Shown: in pieces, positions 12,000 to 21,666 of the stretch
Layout: each line of letters opens with the position of its first letter
Position numbering within the stretch: the first letter of the stretch is position 1
From: Spirochaetota bacterium
GTDB taxonomy: Bacteria; Spirochaetota; GWE2-31-10; JAFGQB01
Assembly (NCBI GenBank): GCA_016935915.1
Contig: JAFGQB010000200.1
Coordinates: forward strand, 1 to 44,037
Length of the DNA stretch: 44,037 bases
Reading direction: 5' to 3'
Translations under genes and position numbers: made by a program
The notes under the pieces: model-generated
Databases searched by the model: none
The model's input: only the letters and a program-made list of their open reading frames with translations
Told to the model about the DNA's origin: nothing

Positions 12000-13400
12000 A
12001 TGTCCAAAGATAAGGATAAAATAATTGATATAATTTCTGGTATTGAGAAAATAAGCTTTTTTAGCAATATAACTGAAAAAGAAAGACCGCCTGTCAGTCC
12101 TGTACCTACTGAAACGAGAGAACTGGCAAGGAGGTCATATGAAGATTTTGTTAAAAAAGTTGAAAAAGCAAAAAATAAAGCATTAGAATCACAAAAAGCA
12201 GTTGATGTTGATGGGGCAAGGCTTTCCGGAGTAAAATCCGGTGATATTTGGCATATTGATAAAGACGGTATAATTGGCAGAAGCTTTGAGCCTAATGAAG
12301 GACTTCTGGAAGGACTGCTCCAGAGACGAACCGAAAGAGTCGCAGATCCAGATAAAGATGTTGATTTGGAATTGCTATTAAAAGTTTTATCCTTTTCACA
12401 ATGGGCGCCCAATGCTACAAATGAACAACCTACAAAAATTTTGATTTATAAAAAAGACCATCCATCAATGGATAAAATCGGTAATTTGATGAAAAAAGCA
12501 TTGGAAGAAAGAATCGTCCCAAATATTAACATCAGGAATTTTATAATCAATAAAAAAAGAGAAACTCCGAATTTCTTGCCAGATATCTCCATGAAAGATT
12601 TAACAGATATGGATGATAAGAAATTTTCAAGCTACAGATTTGAGGAAATGAGCGCACCATTGAATGAATTGCCTCAAACAACGGCAAAATTACTCGAAAG
12701 AAATAAAATTGTTTATGAAAATGGGAAATATTATAATAAATTAAATGACGGTTCTAAAGGCAGTGAATACACATTAAAAGATCTGTTATTGAATGATGTT
12801 ATTTTTACAAAGGGCATGGGTAAATTTTTTTTAAAATTTAAAAATACTCATCCTTACCTGATAGTAGTTTTAAGAAAATGGCATTACACATCATTAATGA
12901 CTGAAACTCTCTATAAATATGGCATACAGCTGCCGGATGTAGGGGAAGAATTTATAGATGCAGGTTTTTATTCTGACTATCTTGCTTTAAGTGCAAGAGG
13001 ATTTGGTTTGTCAGGTGTTGTTAAAACAGGTCCTATGGATCTTGCAAAAGATGAATTGACAGAACTTTTCATTGATGATCTTAAGGAAAAACTTGATCTT
13101 TTTACAACGCTGTTAAATGATGAAAACAATCTAATAAAAGATAAAAAGAGACTAATACAGATGGAAATAGAAAAAATTTTTTTGATTTTTAACGGATTGA
13201 AATATGGACTTGAAGCAATGAGATGCAAGGAACAGAACAGACCTATGAGAGATCAGCTTATTGTTGCTTTAAAAAGAGGAGAGGTATATGTACCAGCAAC
13301 TTTTTTTCAATTGGGCTATCCATTGATCGATCCTGAAGAGCGGATTAAAGATCCGAGACAGGGTAAAGATCCGCTTGATAAAATGATGATTTTAATGTGA
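12000..13400 (+). CDS. Enlarged nitroreductase-fold flavoprotein
   Basis: A 466-aa protein with the landmarks of FMN-dependent nitroreductases in order: QRRTERV (108-114) with the phosphate-contacting Arg pair, WAPNATNEQP (135-144), the core strand PYLIVVLRK (285-293), GFYSDYLALSARGFGLSG (322-339) and the closing LGYP ... RQGKDPLDKMMI near the C-terminus. Typical family members have 170-220 residues. Here there is a ~100-residue N-terminal extension and an insertion of roughly 115 residues (about 165-280), both charged and without motifs I know. The reaction is presumably NAD(P)H- or FMN-linked electron transfer; the substrate is unknown. AAAGGAGAC precedes the ATG, and a bidirectional terminator follows the stop. 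Confidence 0.75.
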   Translation: MSKDKDKIIDIISGIEKISFFSNITEKERPPVSPVPTETRELARRSYEDFVKKVEKAKNKALESQKAVDVDGARLSGVKSGDIWHIDKDGIIGRSFEPNEGLLEGLLQRRTERVADPDKDVDLELLLKVLSFSQWAPNATNEQPTKILIYKKDHPSMDKIGNLMKKALEERIVPNINIRNFIINKKRETPNFLPDISMKDLTDMDDKKFSSYRFEEMSAPLNELPQTTAKLLERNKIVYENGKYYNKLNDGSKGSEYTLKDLLLNDVIFTKGMGKFFLKFKNTHPYLIVVLRKWHYTSLMTETLYKYGIQLPDVGEEFIDAGFYSDYLALSARGFGLSGVVKTGPMDLAKDELTELFIDDLKEKLDLFTTLLNDENNLIKDKKRLIQMEIEKIFLIFNGLKYGLEAMRCKEQNRPMRDQLIVALKRGEVYVPATFFQLGYPLIDPEERIKDPRQGKDPLDKMMILM

Positions 13401-13405
13401 AAAAA

Positions 13406-13437
13406 AATGCAGAAGCCTAATTTAGAGCCTCTGCATT
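13406..13437. terminator. Bidirectional terminator between convergent genes
   Basis: AATGCAGA (13406-13413) pairs exactly with TCTGCATT (13430-13437); a run of A on the left and T on the right provide U-tracts for both strands. It lies between the stops of the nitroreductase-like gene and the VWA-FHA gene, serving both. Confidence 0.75.
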
Positions 13438-13457
13438 TTGTATAAAAAGAATTTAAT

Positions 13458-14882
13458 TTATTTCTTTTTTTTATCTTTATCCATGATACCTTTATCAAAA
13501 ACTATTGTAGCTCCTCCGATGCTGATCACATCTCCGTCTTCCAGGTCTCTTGTTGTAACTTTTTTATTGTTAACTTTTGTATCACCATCTGCTATTATTG
13601 TGTAAGTGTCTTTCTTTTTATTGTATTCGATTTTTGCATGCTTATCTTTAATAGTCGGAGAATTAACAATTGTCATATTTGCATTGGAAGAACCGCCTAT
13701 TATTGTTTGACCTTCATTAAGCGAAATGACTTTAGTTACTGCACGCCCGTATTGTGTACTGATAACTTCCAAATTTGCATTCTGATTTGTATTTTTAAAT
13801 TTAATTAAAGACAGTAAAAATAACAACAGGATTGCAAGCGGCAGTAGAAGTAAGAATAGTAAATTGAAAATTCCGGGTTTTCCGAACAATGTACTGGAAA
13901 AATAAAATCTTGTCACTGATAATTTTTTGTTCATATTGTTATAATCCACTTTAACGTATTTCTTATCAGCAGGATCCATTGTTGCTCTATAGACAAAAAT
14001 GTACTCATTTTGTATCTGGGAAATAATTTTTAGATAAACGTCTTTTAATTCTTTGGGATTATAAGCATCAAATATTCTACCTCCTGTTTGAGAAGCTATT
14101 TCCGATAAATTTCTATCTTTGCTCTGTCCCTGCTTTCCAAAGTTGATTCCAAAAACCGAGATTCCACCTTTCTGGCATTCTAAAATAGGTTCATCATGGT
14201 TGTATGTTTTTGTTCCGTATTCTTTATGTGCTTTTTTTGTATATGTATAATAGGGCATGTTTTCACCATCTGAAAGAATAATAATTACATTTCTACCGGG
14301 ATTTTTAAATTCTGCGACTGCTTTATATAAGCTTGCATATATTTCTGTCCAAGCTTCTTCGCCAACCGGTTTTTTTATCTCATCAAGTACATTTACAACA
14401 TTATCCTTATTACCGGTGAAACTTGAGTGAAGATTGTAATATGTATTATATGAAACTACTGAAATAGTGTCTTTTGGATTTTTTATGCTGTTGATAAAAG
14501 TAATTACCGCATTTTTAGCGTGTGTTATTCTCATGTTTTCTGTTTTATCAGTTTTGATTTCATTCATATCATAATACATACTGCCGGAATTATCTATCAG
14601 GAGAAGGAAATTAACACCTTCATCATAATCCTGTTTACTTTTAAATGAGTATATTTTTTCAATTTTTTTAAAGTTTTTATTGTCAACTGATTCATGGATG
14701 GTAAACATATCCTGTTTTAGATTTTTTAACGGATTACTATTAAAATCGGCAACGCTTATATACATTTTAATCTTCTGATTTAACAATAGTTCCGAATTAT
14801 CAATCTGTGAAATCTGAATGGAATCTGAAAACAAATAAAATGAACAAATAATAATAATTAAAGAAAATATTAGTTTTTTCAT
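13458..14882 (-). CDS. VWA domain - transmembrane helix - FHA domain protein
   Basis: A 474-aa membrane protein. After a signal sequence (1-18) comes an exported von Willebrand A domain (about 90-290) with an intact metal-ion (MIDAS) site: DNSGS at 97-101, Thr179 and SDGEN at 204-208. One transmembrane segment (about 338-361) follows, then a cytoplasmic FHA domain (about 375-463). The FHA core (TIIGGSSNANMTI, then TIKDKHAKI) keeps the fold-forming Gly and His, but the usual phosphothreonine-contacting Arg of GRS is Gly and the Ser before the His is Lys, so phosphopeptide binding may be altered. It is the last gene of the kinase/phosphatase operon, only 7 bp after the membrane-FHA gene. It could carry an external or periplasmic binding event to the cytoplasmic phospho-signalling side. 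Confidence 0.88.
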   Translation of the reverse strand: MKKLIFSLIIIICSFYLFSDSIQISQIDNSELLLNQKIKMYISVADFNSNPLKNLKQDMFTIHESVDNKNFKKIEKIYSFKSKQDYDEGVNFLLLIDNSGSMYYDMNEIKTDKTENMRITHAKNAVITFINSIKNPKDTISVVSYNTYYNLHSSFTGNKDNVVNVLDEIKKPVGEEAWTEIYASLYKAVAEFKNPGRNVIIILSDGENMPYYTYTKKAHKEYGTKTYNHDEPILECQKGGISVFGINFGKQGQSKDRNLSEIASQTGGRIFDAYNPKELKDVYLKIISQIQNEYIFVYRATMDPADKKYVKVDYNNMNKKLSVTRFYFSSTLFGKPGIFNLLFLLLLPLAILLLFLLSLIKFKNTNQNANLEVISTQYGRAVTKVISLNEGQTIIGGSSNANMTIVNSPTIKDKHAKIEYNKKKDTYTIIADGDTKVNNKKVTTRDLEDGDVISIGGATIVFDKGIMDKDKKKK

Positions 14883-14889
14883 AATTTAC

Positions 14890-15783
14890 CTACCTATATT
14901 TAAATAAAAATTTTGCTGTGCCAATCTTGATGACATCTTCAAATTTCAGCTCTTTTTCATTTATAACTTCATCATTAACTCTTACAGGACTTGTTTTTGA
15001 AAGATTTTTTATCAGCACCTTATCTTTCTTGACATTTATTAATGCGTGATTATCCTCCATTATTGAAAAATCTTTTAAGATTATATCATTATTTTTAGAT
15101 TTTCCAATTCTCATTCTTCGTTGATTAATTAAATATTCCTTGCCTTTAAAGGCTCCGTTTAAAACTCTTAAAATACCTGCTGATAATGATTTTTCAATGA
15201 ATCCGTAGAATAATCCAATAAAAAAACCGAAAATTACAAGTCCAATAAGTCTTGAAAACAATAAATTGGGTATAAGCATTGTTATGTATTCCAATGCCAA
15301 TCCGCCAAAAATACCACCCAATAATCCACCAATCAGCCCGATAACTATTTTTTTGCCGGATTGTGTTCTGATTCCTTCAATTATTCCGATAAAAATACCC
15401 AATACTGCCCATCCTGCAGCTCTTGAAAGTGGCAGTATAAAAGTAGAGAAACTTTTTGTTGATGTTTGCAGCAGTTTTTCCCCTATGAAAAAAAGTATAA
15501 ACTGGGCAGTTAGAAATCCCAATATTCCTCCTACAGCTCCTAAAATTATTCCAACCAGTATGCTGGAAATTGTCTGCGAGTAGTTCTGTGTAGTGATGCT
15601 TTCGGTTGTGCTGAAAAATGCACCCATAACAATGCCGAATGCCATACCCAGACAGACACTGAAAATTAAATAGGATTGGAAAAATGTTTGATAATTAATC
15701 AATACTTCTGCAATCGGCCAGCTTGCTAAACCGGCTAAAATGCCAATAAGGCATAAAAATAATTTTTTCATTAAACTTGACAT
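14890..15783 (-). CDS. Multi-pass membrane protein with C-terminal FHA domain
   Basis: A 297-aa protein. Residues 1-205 are hydrophobic, with about six helices rich in Gly (for example the GIILGAVGGILGF and GLIGGLLGGIFGG stretches). Residues 215-295 are a cytoplasmic FHA domain: MRIGKSKNNDIIL (224-236), DNHALI (244-249) and a late PVRVND turn. As in the neighbouring VWA-FHA protein, the canonical pThr-binding Arg (GR) is replaced (Lys) and the SxxH Ser is absent, so binding to phosphothreonine is uncertain. The gene sits between the Ser/Thr kinase (27 bp upstream) and the VWA-FHA gene (7 bp downstream). Glycine-zipper-like helices suggest oligomerisation in the membrane. A scaffold or substrate role for the kinase is inferred from context. 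Confidence 0.85.
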   Translation of the reverse strand: MSSLMKKLFLCLIGILAGLASWPIAEVLINYQTFFQSYLIFSVCLGMAFGIVMGAFFSTTESITTQNYSQTISSILVGIILGAVGGILGFLTAQFILFFIGEKLLQTSTKSFSTFILPLSRAAGWAVLGIFIGIIEGIRTQSGKKIVIGLIGGLLGGIFGGLALEYITMLIPNLLFSRLIGLVIFGFFIGLFYGFIEKSLSAGILRVLNGAFKGKEYLINQRRMRIGKSKNNDIILKDFSIMEDNHALINVKKDKVLIKNLSKTSPVRVNDEVINEKELKFEDVIKIGTAKFLFKYR

Positions 15784-15810
15784 GTTTTCCCTCTCTTATA
15801 AATAAAATTT

Positions 15811-17799
15811 TTAATAAGTATCAACAGTTAATTTTTTATTTTTTTTATTATATCTTGTGGAAATAGTTATTTTTTGATAGCTTTTGATTTGAAATTCTTT
15901 TGTAATTTTATTATTCCCTTTTATAATTGTAATTAAATAATTTCCAGGATTTAACGCAATATCCCTGTTAACAAAGAATGTCTTCTGAATTTTAGAGTAT
16001 TTCCCTTTTTCCTGTCCTGTGGAATAATAAATTAAATTATTTAATAAAATTTGAAAGATTGAAGGCTGGATCCTTGAATATTCATTGTTTTTATTTGCAT
16101 CATAGAAATATTTTGAATTATTTATTAGAATTTTTAAATCTTTTTCCTTTGATCTTAAAAGAAATGTTCCTGCAATCGGCTGAAGAAGTACATTTACGGT
16201 ATAATCATTTTGATAAGGAGCAATATATACTTCAACTCTTTTTTCATAAAAATATTGTTTGTTGAATAAAAAGATCAGTTTTTTTCCTGATAGAAGTTCA
16301 TTATAATAATTAGATCTGAAATAATCCCAGTTTACCCATCTGTTATTATAAAGAACAAATTTGTCAACATTGTCAATACCGGAATTGTCAATCGAATTTT
16401 TAAATAAAAAATTTATTTTCAAAGAAAAAACCGGGATTTTGTCATAAATGATTTTTATTAAAGGTTTTTCTTTGTTTGTTCTTATTAAACTTACCGGATT
16501 GACAAAAAAATAATTTTGATGCTTTTCATTTTGTATATTAACATCAAATTTATATAAACCGGATTTTAAATAAATTTTATAGGATTCAAAAGTATTATTT
16601 ATGTTCCGATTCTTTTTTATATTCTTATGAAGTTTTATTTCCTTGACCAGTTTTTCTTTTCCATCAACCCAATAAATATATGATTTTATAACTTCAGGGG
16701 AATTTATATTGGAAAAGCTTTTTGTTTCTACTATTAATTTGTACCATCCGTGAGAATTTGAGTTAAATAATTCGTGATTATATCCAGTTTTAAAGAACAT
16801 AAGTATTAAAGCTAAAAAGTTAATAAATAAAAAAAGAAATAGAAATTTAAACCTTATTACTGTATTTATTATTTTTTTCTTAAAAGGAACCTTTATTTTT
16901 ATATATTCAATTTCTTTACCTGCTATATAATTTTTAATAAGCTCATTTATTATTTTTTTGTTTTCCCTTTCATTTCCCTTTTTATACTTTACTAGACTTC
17001 CTTTTAATGTTCTTATTATCTCGTTAACATCCTTATATCTTTGACTCTTTTTTGGTTTCATGCATTTTGTAATTATTTTTTGGATTTTTGGTATAATTTT
17101 TGGATTTATCTTATTTGGCAGTACATATTTTCCCTTAGAGATCATGGTAATGGTTTCGGGTGAAATGTTAGCAGGGTAGGGGAGTTTACCTGTGACCATT
17201 TTATAAAGTGTTACTCCCAGTGAATATATATCAGCTCTTTTATCGACTTTTTTTGTATCATAAATTTGTTCGGGTGACATATATGCAGGTGAACCTAAAG
17301 TAGAGCCTTCCCTGGTCAAATTTGATTCGATTTCTTTTTTTGAGGTTGCAATGCCAAAATCCGTTAATTTAACTGAACCGTTTTTTGATATCAGGACATT
17401 AGCGGGTTTGATATCTCTGTGTATTATACCTTTATCATGGGCGTGTTTTAAGCCTTTGCATATTTCTGAAAAAATTATAACAGCTGCTTCATTGGATAAA
17501 TACCTTTTGTCGTCAATTAATTCGTCAAGAGATAGTCCGTTAACATATTCCATTGCAATATAAAAATATTTACCTTCTTTAAAATGATCATAAACCTGAA
17601 CAATATGTTCATCCCTTAAATCAAGCATTATCCTTGCTTCTCTTTTAAATCTTTCGATGACATTGGGTTTGGATATGGTTAATTGTTTTATTATTATGTA
17701 TCTGTCAAGGGTTGGGTGTTTTGCTTTTAAAACAGCACCCATACCGCCTTGACCGATTTTTTCAATTATTTCATATTTCCCTATTTTTTCTCTGCCCAT
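15811..17799 (-). CDS. Transmembrane Ser/Thr protein kinase (PknB-like)
   Basis: A 662-aa Hanks-type protein kinase. The cytoplasmic catalytic domain (about 8-268) is complete: GQGGMG loop (16-21), VAIK-equivalent Lys38, HRDIKPANV (127-135), DFG (147-149), an activation segment with several Ser/Thr (TREGSTLGS) and the APE-equivalent SPEQ (175-178). It is followed by a juxtamembrane linker, one membrane helix (about 317-336) and a ~325-residue extracytoplasmic region rich in beta-strand and aromatic residues, without PASTA repeats. Its YFVN, FLLRSKEKDLKILIN and PGNYLITIIKG segments suggest beta-sandwich or PEGA-like modules. The gene follows the PPP-type phosphatase after 12 bp and precedes two FHA-domain genes, forming a kinase-phosphatase-reader cluster. 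Catalytic activity is expected from the intact motifs; the outer ligand is unknown. Confidence 0.95.
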   Translation of the reverse strand: MGREKIGKYEIIEKIGQGGMGAVLKAKHPTLDRYIIIKQLTISKPNVIERFKREARIMLDLRDEHIVQVYDHFKEGKYFYIAMEYVNGLSLDELIDDKRYLSNEAAVIIFSEICKGLKHAHDKGIIHRDIKPANVLISKNGSVKLTDFGIATSKKEIESNLTREGSTLGSPAYMSPEQIYDTKKVDKRADIYSLGVTLYKMVTGKLPYPANISPETITMISKGKYVLPNKINPKIIPKIQKIITKCMKPKKSQRYKDVNEIIRTLKGSLVKYKKGNERENKKIINELIKNYIAGKEIEYIKIKVPFKKKIINTVIRFKFLFLFLFINFLALILMFFKTGYNHELFNSNSHGWYKLIVETKSFSNINSPEVIKSYIYWVDGKEKLVKEIKLHKNIKKNRNINNTFESYKIYLKSGLYKFDVNIQNEKHQNYFFVNPVSLIRTNKEKPLIKIIYDKIPVFSLKINFLFKNSIDNSGIDNVDKFVLYNNRWVNWDYFRSNYYNELLSGKKLIFLFNKQYFYEKRVEVYIAPYQNDYTVNVLLQPIAGTFLLRSKEKDLKILINNSKYFYDANKNNEYSRIQPSIFQILLNNLIYYSTGQEKGKYSKIQKTFFVNRDIALNPGNYLITIIKGNNKITKEFQIKSYQKITISTRYNKKNKKLTVDTY

Positions 17800-17811
17800 C
17801 TTTATACACCA

Positions 17812-18873
17812 TTAATAATTTTTTATTATTTCTTTAGTTCTATCAGGAATTTCAATGATATCCTTATCAAGATTGATCAAACCCTTGGGCTTTATAAAAC
17901 CAACAATAAATTTATTAGGATTATGTATCTGAACATATTTTCCGTTTGCTCTTATATTATATAAAGAATAAACCGGACGATGACCTCCAAAATATAAATA
18001 GTTTTCTATATTATTATTGGGAAAATAGTATTTAAGCATTTTTTCGACGCTGTCCTTTTCAGCCGCATCATTATCAGTCCATGTTAAATTGATAATTAAT
18101 TCAGGATTATTTTTGTATTCTATTATTTCTTCTTTTGTGTAAAATTTTAAAGGCTCGCAATGAGAAACAATAAAATTATTTCCCATTGCTAATAACGGCA
18201 GACTTTTTTCAAAGAATGAATATTTTATCAAAAAGTCTATCCCGTAGAATTTTTCAACAAATCGTAAAACCATTGGTCCTTCCAATGCAAATTTTCTGAA
18301 TGAATAATTTCCGTCAGTATTTTCATTTAATATGTTTTCATGATTACCTTTTAAAAAATGAAAATTGTCAGGAAAAGAATTTTTTAATTCCATAACTATT
18401 TCCATGACTCCGAAGCTTTCCCGCATTTCCTCATCCATATGTGAATGCTTTTCAAAGTCGCTTTTATATTCCTCCAATGCAATCTGCCACCTTTTAACTG
18501 CTCTGGATTCTGCATGAAAACCATCACCGACACATACTATCTGCATGTTATTATCTGAGAGCTCTTCCAATATTGTTTTATTATTAACTTTATAAAACAT
18601 GATATTGATCAAAAAATCGATTCTAGCGTGAATATCCGGGATAATAATTGTTGATATGTCTTTTTTCAATTGTATAAAACCGCCTGGAATGTTTGAGTTG
18701 CTGTAGGGTCTTATTTCAGAATTTTCATGTTCTAAAGTGTATATTATTTTATCAAGAAGATTTGAATAATCTTGAATTTTCGGTAAATTTTTCCTTTTAT
18801 ATATTTGAATTAATTTTTTCTTTAAATAAGTAACCTTATCTGTCTCATAGTTATTTAATTCAATATTTTTCAT
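17812..18873 (-). CDS. PPP/calcineurin-like metallophosphatase
   Basis: A 353-aa metallophosphoesterase. Metal-site motifs in order are PDIHAR (79-84, D-x-H), VGDGFH (115-120), KGNHEN (175-180), SHCEP (237-241) and GGHRP (296-300). This order matches the PPP phosphoprotein phosphatase and calcineurin-like superfamily, although the canonical GDxxDRG is reduced to GDGFHAE. The gene lies in the same operon as the Ser/Thr kinase, 12 bp upstream of it and 20 bp downstream of the 176-aa gene. This placement makes a phosphoprotein phosphatase that reverses the kinase a reasonable inference. A diadenosine-tetraphosphatase-like or other phosphoesterase role is the main alternative. Confidence 0.85.
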   Translation of the reverse strand: MKNIELNNYETDKVTYLKKKLIQIYKRKNLPKIQDYSNLLDKIIYTLEHENSEIRPYSNSNIPGGFIQLKKDISTIIIPDIHARIDFLINIMFYKVNNKTILEELSDNNMQIVCVGDGFHAESRAVKRWQIALEEYKSDFEKHSHMDEEMRESFGVMEIVMELKNSFPDNFHFLKGNHENILNENTDGNYSFRKFALEGPMVLRFVEKFYGIDFLIKYSFFEKSLPLLAMGNNFIVSHCEPLKFYTKEEIIEYKNNPELIINLTWTDNDAAEKDSVEKMLKYYFPNNNIENYLYFGGHRPVYSLYNIRANGKYVQIHNPNKFIVGFIKPKGLINLDKDIIEIPDRTKEIIKNY

Positions 18874-18893
18874 TTAATACTCTTAATTGATTT

Positions 18894-19424
18894 TTAATCA
18901 CCGACTATAGTTTTATTCACTTCGACAAAATCATCAATAATTACAGTTGCAGCTTTAGTAATATTTTTTTCCTGTTCTGTTGCAGATAATTCTTCTTCAC
19001 AGATGCTGATTTTATAAACCGCAGAGGTTCTTTTAACAGGACCAACTTTAAATTCGATAATATCGTCAATATCTATATTTGATTCAAGCTCGCTTAAATC
19101 ATTTGTCGCAAGTTCAGGCACATCCTGTCGTAAACCTATACTTGCATATGATACTTTTCTAACATTATCAACTATAGGTCCTAAATTAATTAATGAACCC
19201 GAATAGGTTAAAATCAAAGCACCTTTTGGATCATCCTTTTCAAAAGAGTTTATCTCTATCATTTTCATATTAGATATTTCCTGTTCAAAGATTCTTTCTT
19301 TTTCAAGCCAGCCTTCTGAAATTTTTTCTAAAGATTCTTCATTATCAGGCATACCAGACCTTTTTGTGATTTCCTTAATATGATCTTTAATATAATCCGG
19401 TATTTTATCAAAAAATTCTCCCAT
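18894..19424 (-). CDS. Conserved hypothetical protein heading the kinase/phosphatase operon
   Basis: A 176-aa soluble protein starting MGEFFDKIPDYIKDHIKEIT. It has a helical, acidic N-terminal third (EESLEKISEGWLEKERIFEQ) and a beta-rich second part with DPKGALILTYSGSLINLGP and the late EFKVGPVKRTSAVYKISIC. No catalytic motif is apparent. The pattern reminds me of an uncharacterised protein in spirochaete genomes, often of this size, but I cannot name a family. AGGAGG four bases before ACATG gives a very strong ribosome binding site, so it is the likely first gene of the five-gene operon and probably well translated. Its role in phospho-signalling is inferred only from position. Confidence 0.75.
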   Translation of the reverse strand: MGEFFDKIPDYIKDHIKEITKRSGMPDNEESLEKISEGWLEKERIFEQEISNMKMIEINSFEKDDPKGALILTYSGSLINLGPIVDNVRKVSYASIGLRQDVPELATNDLSELESNIDIDDIIEFKVGPVKRTSAVYKISICEEELSATEQEKNITKAATVIIDDFVEVNKTIVGD

Positions 19425-19770: not shown

Positions 19771-20679
19771 TTAAAAATTTATATAGCTGAATATACCTCT
19801 TCTCAGTTTTTTCCTGAAATTTGTGGTGTTATCAGCAAGGATTTTTCTTGCATATTCTATATTTTTATTGATTTCCGAAATATATAGATTTTTTTGAATG
19901 CCGTATCTTCTTTTAAAATGATAAATAGAATACATATATGCATCATCAAAGACCTTGATTAATCTTATTTTTATTTTTTCATAAAAAATTATAGTATTTT
20001 TAATTATATCAAATTCTGTTTTATAACCGGGTATTCCGGCTTCCTTAAATTCATAATATAAAAATAACAATCTTTCAAGATACTCCCTGTCTGCCATCTG
20101 TCCTATAATATCCGCTGTTCCTAAAAACGAATAAGCAAGCTTTTCTTCTTCTAATTCTAAATGATTTTTGTTCTTTTCATTTTCAATATCCGTTGATTGT
20201 ATGATCCTGGCTATGATTTTTACATCTTCTGATTTTATATTGAATTTTTTATATTCTTTTTCTAAAAAACTTATGCTTCTCAAAACATGCTTATCAGTAT
20301 ATTTTGCACCAGTGCCAGTATTATCCCAAATTTCCTGAATATAGCCGGTATCATGAAATAAAGCAGCTAAAAGAATATAAATGGCAAATTCTTTTGATAA
20401 TTTATTATTATTTATATAATTATAACCGTCAATCAGCCTCATGCTTGCAAGAAAGACATCAATAGTATGATTGAAATTATGATACTGAGTATTACATTCT
20501 TTATATCCGCTGAATTTCCCTTCAAATAAATTTGATATTAAATAATAAGCTTTATCAATTGTCTCAAAAGATTTTTTGTCATAATTGTCGGAAAAAAAGT
20601 TTTTTACGTTATTATATACTTCAGTTATAATTTTTGAATTAATTAACTCGGATAACTTGAAATCTTTTCTCTCTTCCAT
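19771..20679 (-). CDS. HD-domain phosphohydrolase, cyclic-nucleotide phosphodiesterase-like
   Basis: A 302-aa cytoplasmic HD-superfamily protein. The segment YHNFNHTIDV (66-75) followed by LAALFHDTGY (104-113) and a later TADIIGQ matches the HNxxH...HD...D metal site typical of class I cyclic-nucleotide phosphodiesterases and their bacterial relatives. No GAF, PAS or receiver domain is attached. Hydrolysis of a cyclic nucleotide or another phosphoester is likely; the precise substrate is not readable. It is followed upstream on the same strand by a metallo-beta-lactamase-fold gene (135 bp gap), a fold that also includes class II cyclic-nucleotide phosphodiesterases. The ATG at 20679 lacks a strong ribosome binding site. 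Confidence 0.8.
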   Translation of the reverse strand: MEERKDFKLSELINSKIITEVYNNVKNFFSDNYDKKSFETIDKAYYLISNLFEGKFSGYKECNTQYHNFNHTIDVFLASMRLIDGYNYINNNKLSKEFAIYILLAALFHDTGYIQEIWDNTGTGAKYTDKHVLRSISFLEKEYKKFNIKSEDVKIIARIIQSTDIENEKNKNHLELEEEKLAYSFLGTADIIGQMADREYLERLLFLYYEFKEAGIPGYKTEFDIIKNTIIFYEKIKIRLIKVFDDAYMYSIYHFKRRYGIQKNLYISEINKNIEYARKILADNTTNFRKKLRRGIFSYINF

Positions 20680-20814: not shown

Positions 20815-21666
20815 TTATAAAAATGTATAATAATAGCCTTCTTTAGTAAATCCTGCAAAGCCGTCTTTTTCAGCATTAAATTTTTTAAAGTTATCCTGAT
20901 AATGTGTTAAAAAAATTTTATTTTTTATTTCTCTTGGAAATTTTTTAAGCTCTTCATAAGATGCATGGACTCCACCTTTAAACAATTGACAGTCATGGAA
21001 AATATATTGAATGTTTTCATATTTATCAACAAGAAATTTAATTAATTCTGGATCATGTTTCGTGTCGGATGTAAATAATATTTTTTCATCAATAATTAAA
21101 CCATATGATAAAAATGCATCTTTCCATGATTTTGACGAGTCCGGGACATGATTGGTTCTAAAAAATTTCAGATTAATATTTTTAAACTCCAATTCATACA
21201 TTGTTCTCTCTGAATTTTTAATTTTTGACGGATATATTGGATTAAAAAGATCATTAAAGGTCAAATAATCACCTTTAATTATTTCATTAAAGGCGCAGCC
21301 TCCTTTTAATGAATAATCCCATAATATTTTTTCATATTCTTTTACAATTATTATATTCGGTTTTAATTTGGCTATATATCTGTTGATCAAGGCTACTTCT
21401 TCTAATCCACCGATATGATCTGCATGTGAATGAGTAATTAAATAATTTTTAATTTCCATAACTGATGAACCATAATTATTTAAAGCTAAAGGACATTTTG
21501 TACCGCAATCAACAAGCAAATGCGTATCACTTTTAATTATTAAAAAATTATTTTGAAATAATATTTTAGAAAATGCACTGCCTGTACCCAGCCAGAATAA
21601 TGATAATTCTCCGTTGTTTTTCAGTATTAATTTTTTTTTGAATTTATAAATTTTGGGGAAAAACAT
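20815..21666 (-). CDS. Metallo-beta-lactamase-fold hydrolase
   Basis: A 283-aa protein of the metallo-beta-lactamase superfamily. The zinc motif THSHADH is at 78-84, preceded by LGTGSAFS (26-33) and LLVDCG (50-55), with further ligands expected in TNHVPDS, the FTSDTKHD segment, FHDCQ and LTHYQD. The GTGSA opening and HSHADH pattern are closest to the RNase Z / cyclic-nucleotide phosphodiesterase-like branch rather than true beta-lactamases. RNase Z activity on tRNA 3' ends is possible but the extra exosite arm is not evident. AAAGGACAT precedes the ATG. The gene diverges from the Nudix gene and lies upstream of the HD-domain gene on the same strand. Confidence 0.82.
   Translation of the reverse strand: MFFPKIYKFKKKLILKNNGELSLFWLGTGSAFSKILFQNNFLIIKSDTHLLVDCGTKCPLALNNYGSSVMEIKNYLITHSHADHIGGLEEVALINRYIAKLKPNIIIVKEYEKILWDYSLKGGCAFNEIIKGDYLTFNDLFNPIYPSKIKNSERTMYELEFKNINLKFFRTNHVPDSSKSWKDAFLSYGLIIDEKILFTSDTKHDPELIKFLVDKYENIQYIFHDCQLFKGGVHASYEELKKFPREIKNKIFLTHYQDNFKKFNAEKDGFAGFTKEGYYYTFL

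Follow-up and report, generated by a model that had tools for sequence, protein, structure and literature searches.

A predicted Ser/Thr phosphorylation cassette of the Spirochaetota combining a transmembrane kinase, a PPP-like phosphatase and FHA-domain membrane proteins

The presence of a transmembrane (TM) Ser/Thr kinase, a metallophosphatase and two membrane proteins ending in FHA domains in one tightly packed run of genes raises the question of whether they constitute a conserved signalling unit and, if so, how that unit relates to established kinase-phosphatase-FHA systems and upon what it might act. Such a run occupies positions 13458-19424 of the window, the whole 44,037-nucleotide stretch of Spirochaetota DNA that was analysed. 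An open-reading-frame check confirmed five intact reading frames, all on the minus strand and separated, as originally predicted, by gaps of 7-27 bp (20, 12, 27 and 7 bp in transcription order). The first gene, preceded by a ribosome-binding site (aggagg), codes for Unk (18894..19424, minus strand), a cytosolic protein of 176 aa from a family that has HU-fused paralogues and is unnamed in Pfam. It is followed on the same strand by genes for a PPP-like metallophosphatase of 353 aa (17812..18873), a TM Hanks-type Ser/Thr kinase of 662 aa (15811..17799), a membrane FHA protein of 297 aa (14890..15783) and a VWA-TM-FHA protein of 474 aa (13458..14882). Behind the VWA gene lies an intrinsic terminator hairpin with a U8 tail (~13395..13450, minus strand; -19.1 kcal/mol, z = -6.3), which was absent from the list given by a simple consensus scan.

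Upstream of the operon are a gene (19771-20679) whose HD-domain product matches PDEase weakly and, just upstream of that, a minus-strand gene (20815-21666) for a metallo-beta-lactamase-fold protein with a match to Pfam Anti-Pycsar Apyc1 (3.5e-32). Assignment of the operon itself as a defence system was rejected, PADLOC having returned only generic kinase-domain matches (PD-T4-6, mad6) together with a weak CARF_2M match to the membrane FHA protein.

A first search of 60 related genomes recovered relatives of the phosphatase in 16, with the complete five-gene order at several loci. A named scan yielded 218 relatives, the best 80 of which gave 79 loci titled nearly throughout as Spirochaetota or Spirochaetes, Treponema among them; the outlying titles (one Deferribacteres, one Neomarinimicrobiota and two 'bacterium' only) may represent either mis-binned sequences or real outliers. 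All five genes were present with their order intact at 47 of the 79 loci, contig ends having cut most of the remainder, and the contrary expectation that the genes would not be neighbours in related genomes thereby fails. Mean pairwise identity of the cassette proteins across the phylum was 35-45%, a sign that the arrangement is of long standing, and its conservation at such identities is beyond chance. Pairwise distances of the five proteins correlated at r = 0.73-0.92, values uncorrected for species phylogeny and highest for the membrane FHA with the VWA-FHA protein; since these tests ignore phylogeny, the co-inheritance of the cassette genes could reflect shared lineage. Judged by these comparisons, the five genes are a real conserved unit.

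The modularity of that unit was surveyed across 198 evenly drawn Spirochaetota genomes, taking in the phosphatase, membrane FHA, Unk and a small soluble FHA protein described below. Phosphatase was detected in 38 genomes (strong matches plus one fragment), Unk in 26 (E<1e-40) and membrane FHA in 24; every one of the last 24 also carried Unk, and 22 of them the phosphatase. Several genomes within the window's own order retained the phosphatase and kinase alone, and one genome (G029) presented a Unk-kinase-membrane FHA locus in which a restriction-enzyme-like open reading frame separates kinase and membrane FHA and both phosphatase and VWA are absent; the kinase and phosphatase are thus the usual core, and Unk and membrane FHA (plus VWA) an accessory set. 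No phosphatase was detected in a further genome (G007), the contig of which begins at the kinase. An open reading frame for an NgoPII-like restriction endonuclease lies between the kinase and membrane FHA genes at a locus devoid of phosphatase and VWA genes (L135:6901-7755, minus strand).

The kinase matched Pfam Pkinase (PF00069, 7.5e-57), and consists of a kinase domain (residues 9-256), one predicted TM segment (317-335) and an outer domain of ~325 aa. The Lys, HRD, Asn, DFG and PE motifs of a Hanks-type enzyme were all present, with K38, HRD, K131, N134 and DFG 98-100% conserved in 67 kinase sequences, in agreement with the original prediction of an intact Hanks kinase devoid of PASTA repeats. 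None of these repeats was found in the Pfam scan, and identification as a PASTA kinase (PknB/Stk1) was dismissed on that account, NF033483 also falling below its cut-off and covering the kinase domain only. The outer domain gave no Pfam family match in the three homologues scanned. Three Hanks kinases were recorded in the window's genome (~78% complete), and that same incomplete assembly returned no match to the PP2C_2 phosphatase family (PF13672). A second TM kinase in this genome, also of 662 aa and with the layout of the operon kinase (G000:C234; L144:7223-9211, minus strand), lies between mutS2-like and metK genes, with phosphatase and FHA neighbours absent.

The phosphatase matched Pfam Metallophos (PF00149) at 2.6e-4, and residues D80, H82, D117, N177, H238 and H298, which from their motif positions are the expected metal ligands, were invariant in 73 phosphatase sequences. 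The signature motifs of the PPP family include GDXHG (PMC535813), and the motif GDXXDRG carries the R-clamp arginine (PMC535813, PMC10214084). In the present enzyme the first of these reads PDLHAR (D80, H82 and R84 invariant) and the second GDGFHAE (G116, D117, H120 and E122 invariant in the 73 sequences); the third, GNH(E/D), is represented by LKGNHEN, in which GNHE is invariant. Because only one of the three signature motifs is present, the protein is not a PPP member by signature, and the PPP motif order claimed for it holds for the succession of metal ligands but not for GDXHG and GDXXDRG. By eye, no D(S/T)G corresponding to the bacterial-PPP motif (I/L/V)D(S/T)G was seen towards the C terminus of the consensus, where VQIHNP follows the last metal His, and NCBIfam gave no family match. 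An AlphaFold2 model of the enzyme (mean pLDDT 96.4) was nevertheless matched among its best 50 PDB structures by PPP enzymes throughout (PP5, PPZ1, PP1, PP2A, RDGC), the best at E 1.1e-11 with a TM-score of 0.59 by query, and a sequence profile found PPP chains only, as weak matches via the GNHE region. An ApaH-type Ap4A hydrolase was rejected as a candidate, there being none among those 50 matches and no NCBIfam match, and the concern that the enzyme might belong with such hydrolases thus fails. On the strength of the model, the phosphatase is best described as PPP-like, closest in fold to the eukaryotic PPP Ser/Thr phosphatases (PP5, PP1, PP2A) rather than a strict member of the family.

Pfam matches and TM predictions upheld the presence of two membrane proteins each ending in an FHA domain. 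The membrane FHA protein (PF16697, Yop-YscD_cpl, 8.7e-17; PF00498, 1.7e-8) has six glycine-rich predicted TM segments followed by a C-terminal degenerate FHA domain, and the VWA-TM-FHA protein (VWA_2, PF13519, 4.5e-13; FHA, PF00498, 6.3e-7) has a predicted signal peptide, an exported VWA domain, a TM segment (342-360) and a cytoplasmic degenerate FHA domain. The DxSxS, Thr and Asp elements of a MIDAS are present in the VWA domain, D97, S99, S101 and D205 being 100% and T179 98% conserved in 51 VWA-FHA sequences, so the description of an exported VWA domain with an intact MIDAS stands. Its nearest solved counterparts were 4rck and the Bat proteins (BatB 3ibs, 2.4e-9). In the FHA domains, the fold core (G227, N270, D283, G288) was strictly conserved and the pThr contacts (the Arg after IG, the Ser of SRxH and the first NG) varied freely in 52 membrane FHA and 51 VWA-FHA sequences, with the result that neither protein has the Arg, Ser and Asn-Gly contacts of a canonical pThr reader. 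The lack of the canonical Arg and Ser, already remarked upon in the original prediction, is therefore a family property and not a defect of this genome. As the pThr-binding residues have been lost family-wide, docking appears likelier than phospho-reading, and the domains are unlikely to be canonical readers. From its topology and co-inheritance, the VWA protein may sense outside and couple to the kinase.

The window's genome holds a second FHA and VWA-TM pair (G000:C259:111-1643; L133), comprising a zinc-ribbon FHA protein and then an exported VWA-TM protein, followed by two small genes that read from their sequences as phage-tail-assembly-like; a link to a contractile injection system is possible. 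A separate gene (G000:C258:316-1413; L132) codes for an FHA domain and a lytic-transglycosylase-like domain with a TM segment between them.

A T-x-S-G-S core was invariant in the 64-member Unk alignment, no Pfam family scored above cut-off for Unk, and single-member Pfam matches were unreproduced across the family. Its model (pLDDT 91.4) gave 0 matches in the PDB at E<=1e-3; weak structural matches to galectin and RanBP1 folds were judged meaningless, and a PDB sequence match to a proteasome subunit (0.093 only) was unconvincing. A Unk paralogue that carries in addition a bacterial HU DNA-binding domain (PF00216) was recorded beside the operon at 33 loci, the HU domain having been scanned in examples and not at all 33, and of the four Unk copies in the window's genome one is HU-fused, away from the operon. 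Only this fusion suggests that Unk may relay the signal to DNA. The fourth Unk paralogue of the genome (G000:C243; L044:8194-9105) has an unrelated C-terminal extension of ~130 aa with no Pfam match.

The small soluble FHA protein, of ~114 aa, adjoins the cassette at many loci. Its FHA domain is canonical (IGR, SRxH and STNGT, with GR, SRxH and SxNGT invariant), and its N-terminal tail contains an invariant Thr5 within the consensus DETI; the layout is accordingly that of GarA/OdhI, a canonical FHA domain plus an N-terminal tail with a candidate phospho-Thr, and the ETT-type tail motif of those proteins is absent. FHA domains usually read the residue at +3 from the Thr, which in these tails was not uniformly hydrophobic. 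The protein was detected in 30 of the 198 Spirochaetota genomes (E<1e-30); the phosphatase accompanied it in 28 (Fisher p = 2.0e-23, uncorrected for phylogeny), and the kinase was present in the remaining two (G007 and G029). Ten genomes of one family (f19), apparently a Treponema family, have the small FHA and phosphatase without Unk and membrane FHA. The order small FHA-phosphatase-kinase occurs at two loci, L118 (Treponema) and L119, and by coordinates the small FHA adjoins the phosphatase in several further genomes; the window's genome has one copy, on another contig. Four genomes (G038, G129, G138 and G167) combined phosphatase, Unk and membrane FHA with the small FHA undetected, and hence it would not be the only target, unless it was missed in incomplete assemblies. 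Taken together, the protein is a probable reader or substrate of the kinase/phosphatase pair.

Among genes recurring around the operon at 86 loci, the most prominent were Unk-HU and two families of small FHA proteins, ahead of minor others, many further neighbour clusters were antisense frames of the same genes, and no secretion gene families were recognised. The GarA-like protein recurred beside the operon at 13 loci of this survey, and a second small soluble FHA family (motif DLGSLNKT) was found beside it at seven, examples being L060:6814-7248, L062:6984-7355, L081:7001-7432 and L100:13580-14035.

Comparison with established systems served to place the cassette. The TerY-P and YegI-K-L triads consist of a kinase, a PP2C and a cytosolic VWA protein in one cluster; the cassette shares with them the clustering of kinase, phosphatase and VWA, but its phosphatase is PPP-like and its VWA protein an exported VWA-TM-FHA protein. 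BatB being among the nearest solved VWA domains, there is also a likeness to the Bat (aerotolerance) proteins, from which the cassette VWA differs in its C-terminal FHA domain and its place with a kinase and phosphatase. The archaeal Arn proteins control the archaellum, are cytosolic, and are not known to be encoded in one operon. Their network comprises ArnA-ArnB (FHA, VWA), the kinases ArnC/ArnD and the phosphatase PP2A (PMC6509490). FHA, VWA, Ser/Thr kinase and PPP-type phosphatase are joined in both cases, whereas the cassette encodes an exported, membrane-anchored VWA protein and has all its parts in one operon. The PppA phosphatase of the T6SS threonine phosphorylation pathway is a PP2C. 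In that pathway, PpkA-PppA-Fha, the TM Ser/Thr kinase has a periplasmic domain and is combined with an antagonist phosphatase and an FHA target (PMC6082577). The cassette likewise combines TM kinase, phosphatase and FHA; by way of difference, its phosphatase is PPP-like (PF13672 being unmatched in the genome), no T6SS genes were recognised beside the operon, its membrane FHA domains are degenerate, and Unk and Unk-HU are extra. GarA/OdhI and DgcB are small canonical FHA proteins with an N-terminal tail Thr (PMC2784874, PMC6733907), which binds the protein's own FHA domain (PMC6733907); the associated small FHA has the same layout, but a DETI tail with invariant Thr in place of ETT, and belongs to another phylum. 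The literature searched yielded no report of the cassette, no study of Hanks kinases with FHA/VWA in spirochaetes, and no description of a spirochaete Ser/Thr phospho-signalling pathway. In its predicted mode of action the cassette resembles kinase-phosphatase-FHA systems such as the T6SS threonine pathway, the Arn network and GarA/OdhI.

Our preferred reading, to which we assign an even prospect, is that of a Spirochaetota-wide TM Ser/Thr phosphorylation module that includes sensing, a scaffold, a tail-FHA switch and an output to DNA. Its core would be the kinase and phosphatase, to which full systems add the six-TM FHA protein, the VWA-TM-FHA protein and Unk, a composition shown by the gene sequences compared. 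The VWA domain and the outer domain of the kinase would meet an envelope or surface cue, and the two degenerate-FHA membrane proteins would form a scaffold on which kinase and phosphatase dock and are brought together at the membrane. The kinase would then phosphorylate, and the phosphatase reset, the tail Thr of the small soluble FHA protein, whether encoded adjacently or elsewhere; as with GarA/OdhI and DgcB, that tail may be bound by the FHA domain of its own protein, freeing or blocking partners. Unk and its HU-fused paralogue could, by means of the domain they share, convey some of the output to DNA or the nucleoid. The fuller proposal, a phylum-wide signalling system of new layout in which a TM kinase and, acting against it, a divergent PPP-like phosphatase sit on a degenerate-FHA scaffold with an exported MIDAS VWA sensor, a GarA-like switch is toggled, and the nucleoid is reached via the unnamed HU-fused domain, is offered as a tentative and rather doubtful one.

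Three other explanations were weighed against this module. The membrane FHA and VWA-FHA proteins might be altered-specificity phospho-readers that are drawn to the kinase by its autophosphorylation, with the small FHA protein incidental; both retain recognisable FHA folds with a strictly kept core (G227, N270, D283, G288) and are encoded with a kinase. We consider this unlikely in view of the free variation at their pThr contact positions in 52 and 51 sequences, the tracking of the kinase-phosphatase pair by a canonical small FHA free of such defects, and the ten genomes that retain that protein and the phosphatase without Unk and membrane FHA. It is similarly improbable that the phosphatase is a nucleotide or phosphodiester hydrolase serving another process and held in the operon for co-expression: the single retained PPP motif, the GDGFHAE in place of the R-clamp motif GDXXDRG and the lack of an NCBIfam family would suit such an enzyme, but the best 50 structural matches were all PPP Ser/Thr phosphatases, the sequence profile found, albeit weakly, only PPP chains, and the gene stays beside the kinase where the remaining cassette is lost.

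More doubtful still, and in our estimation very unlikely, is regulation by the cassette of a secretion or surface machine in the manner of threonine phosphorylation in T6SS. The kinds of parts are indeed those of PpkA/PppA/Fha (PMC6082577), and in the same genome the C259 FHA-VWA pair adjoins phage-tail-like genes; against this, no secretion family was recognised among the genes recurring at the 86 loci.

Under the preferred reading of a Ser/Thr phosphorylation module, the phylum-wide cassette and its smaller three-gene Treponema form provide a defined set of partners for such signalling in the Spirochaetota. The cassette would add to the phosphatases a PPP-like branch that lacks GDXXDRG and remains beside a kinase, to the FHA domains conserved examples that appear to have evolved away from phospho-binding, and to the repertoire of these bacteria a new domain that occurs in a signalling operon as well as in an HU-type DNA-binding protein.
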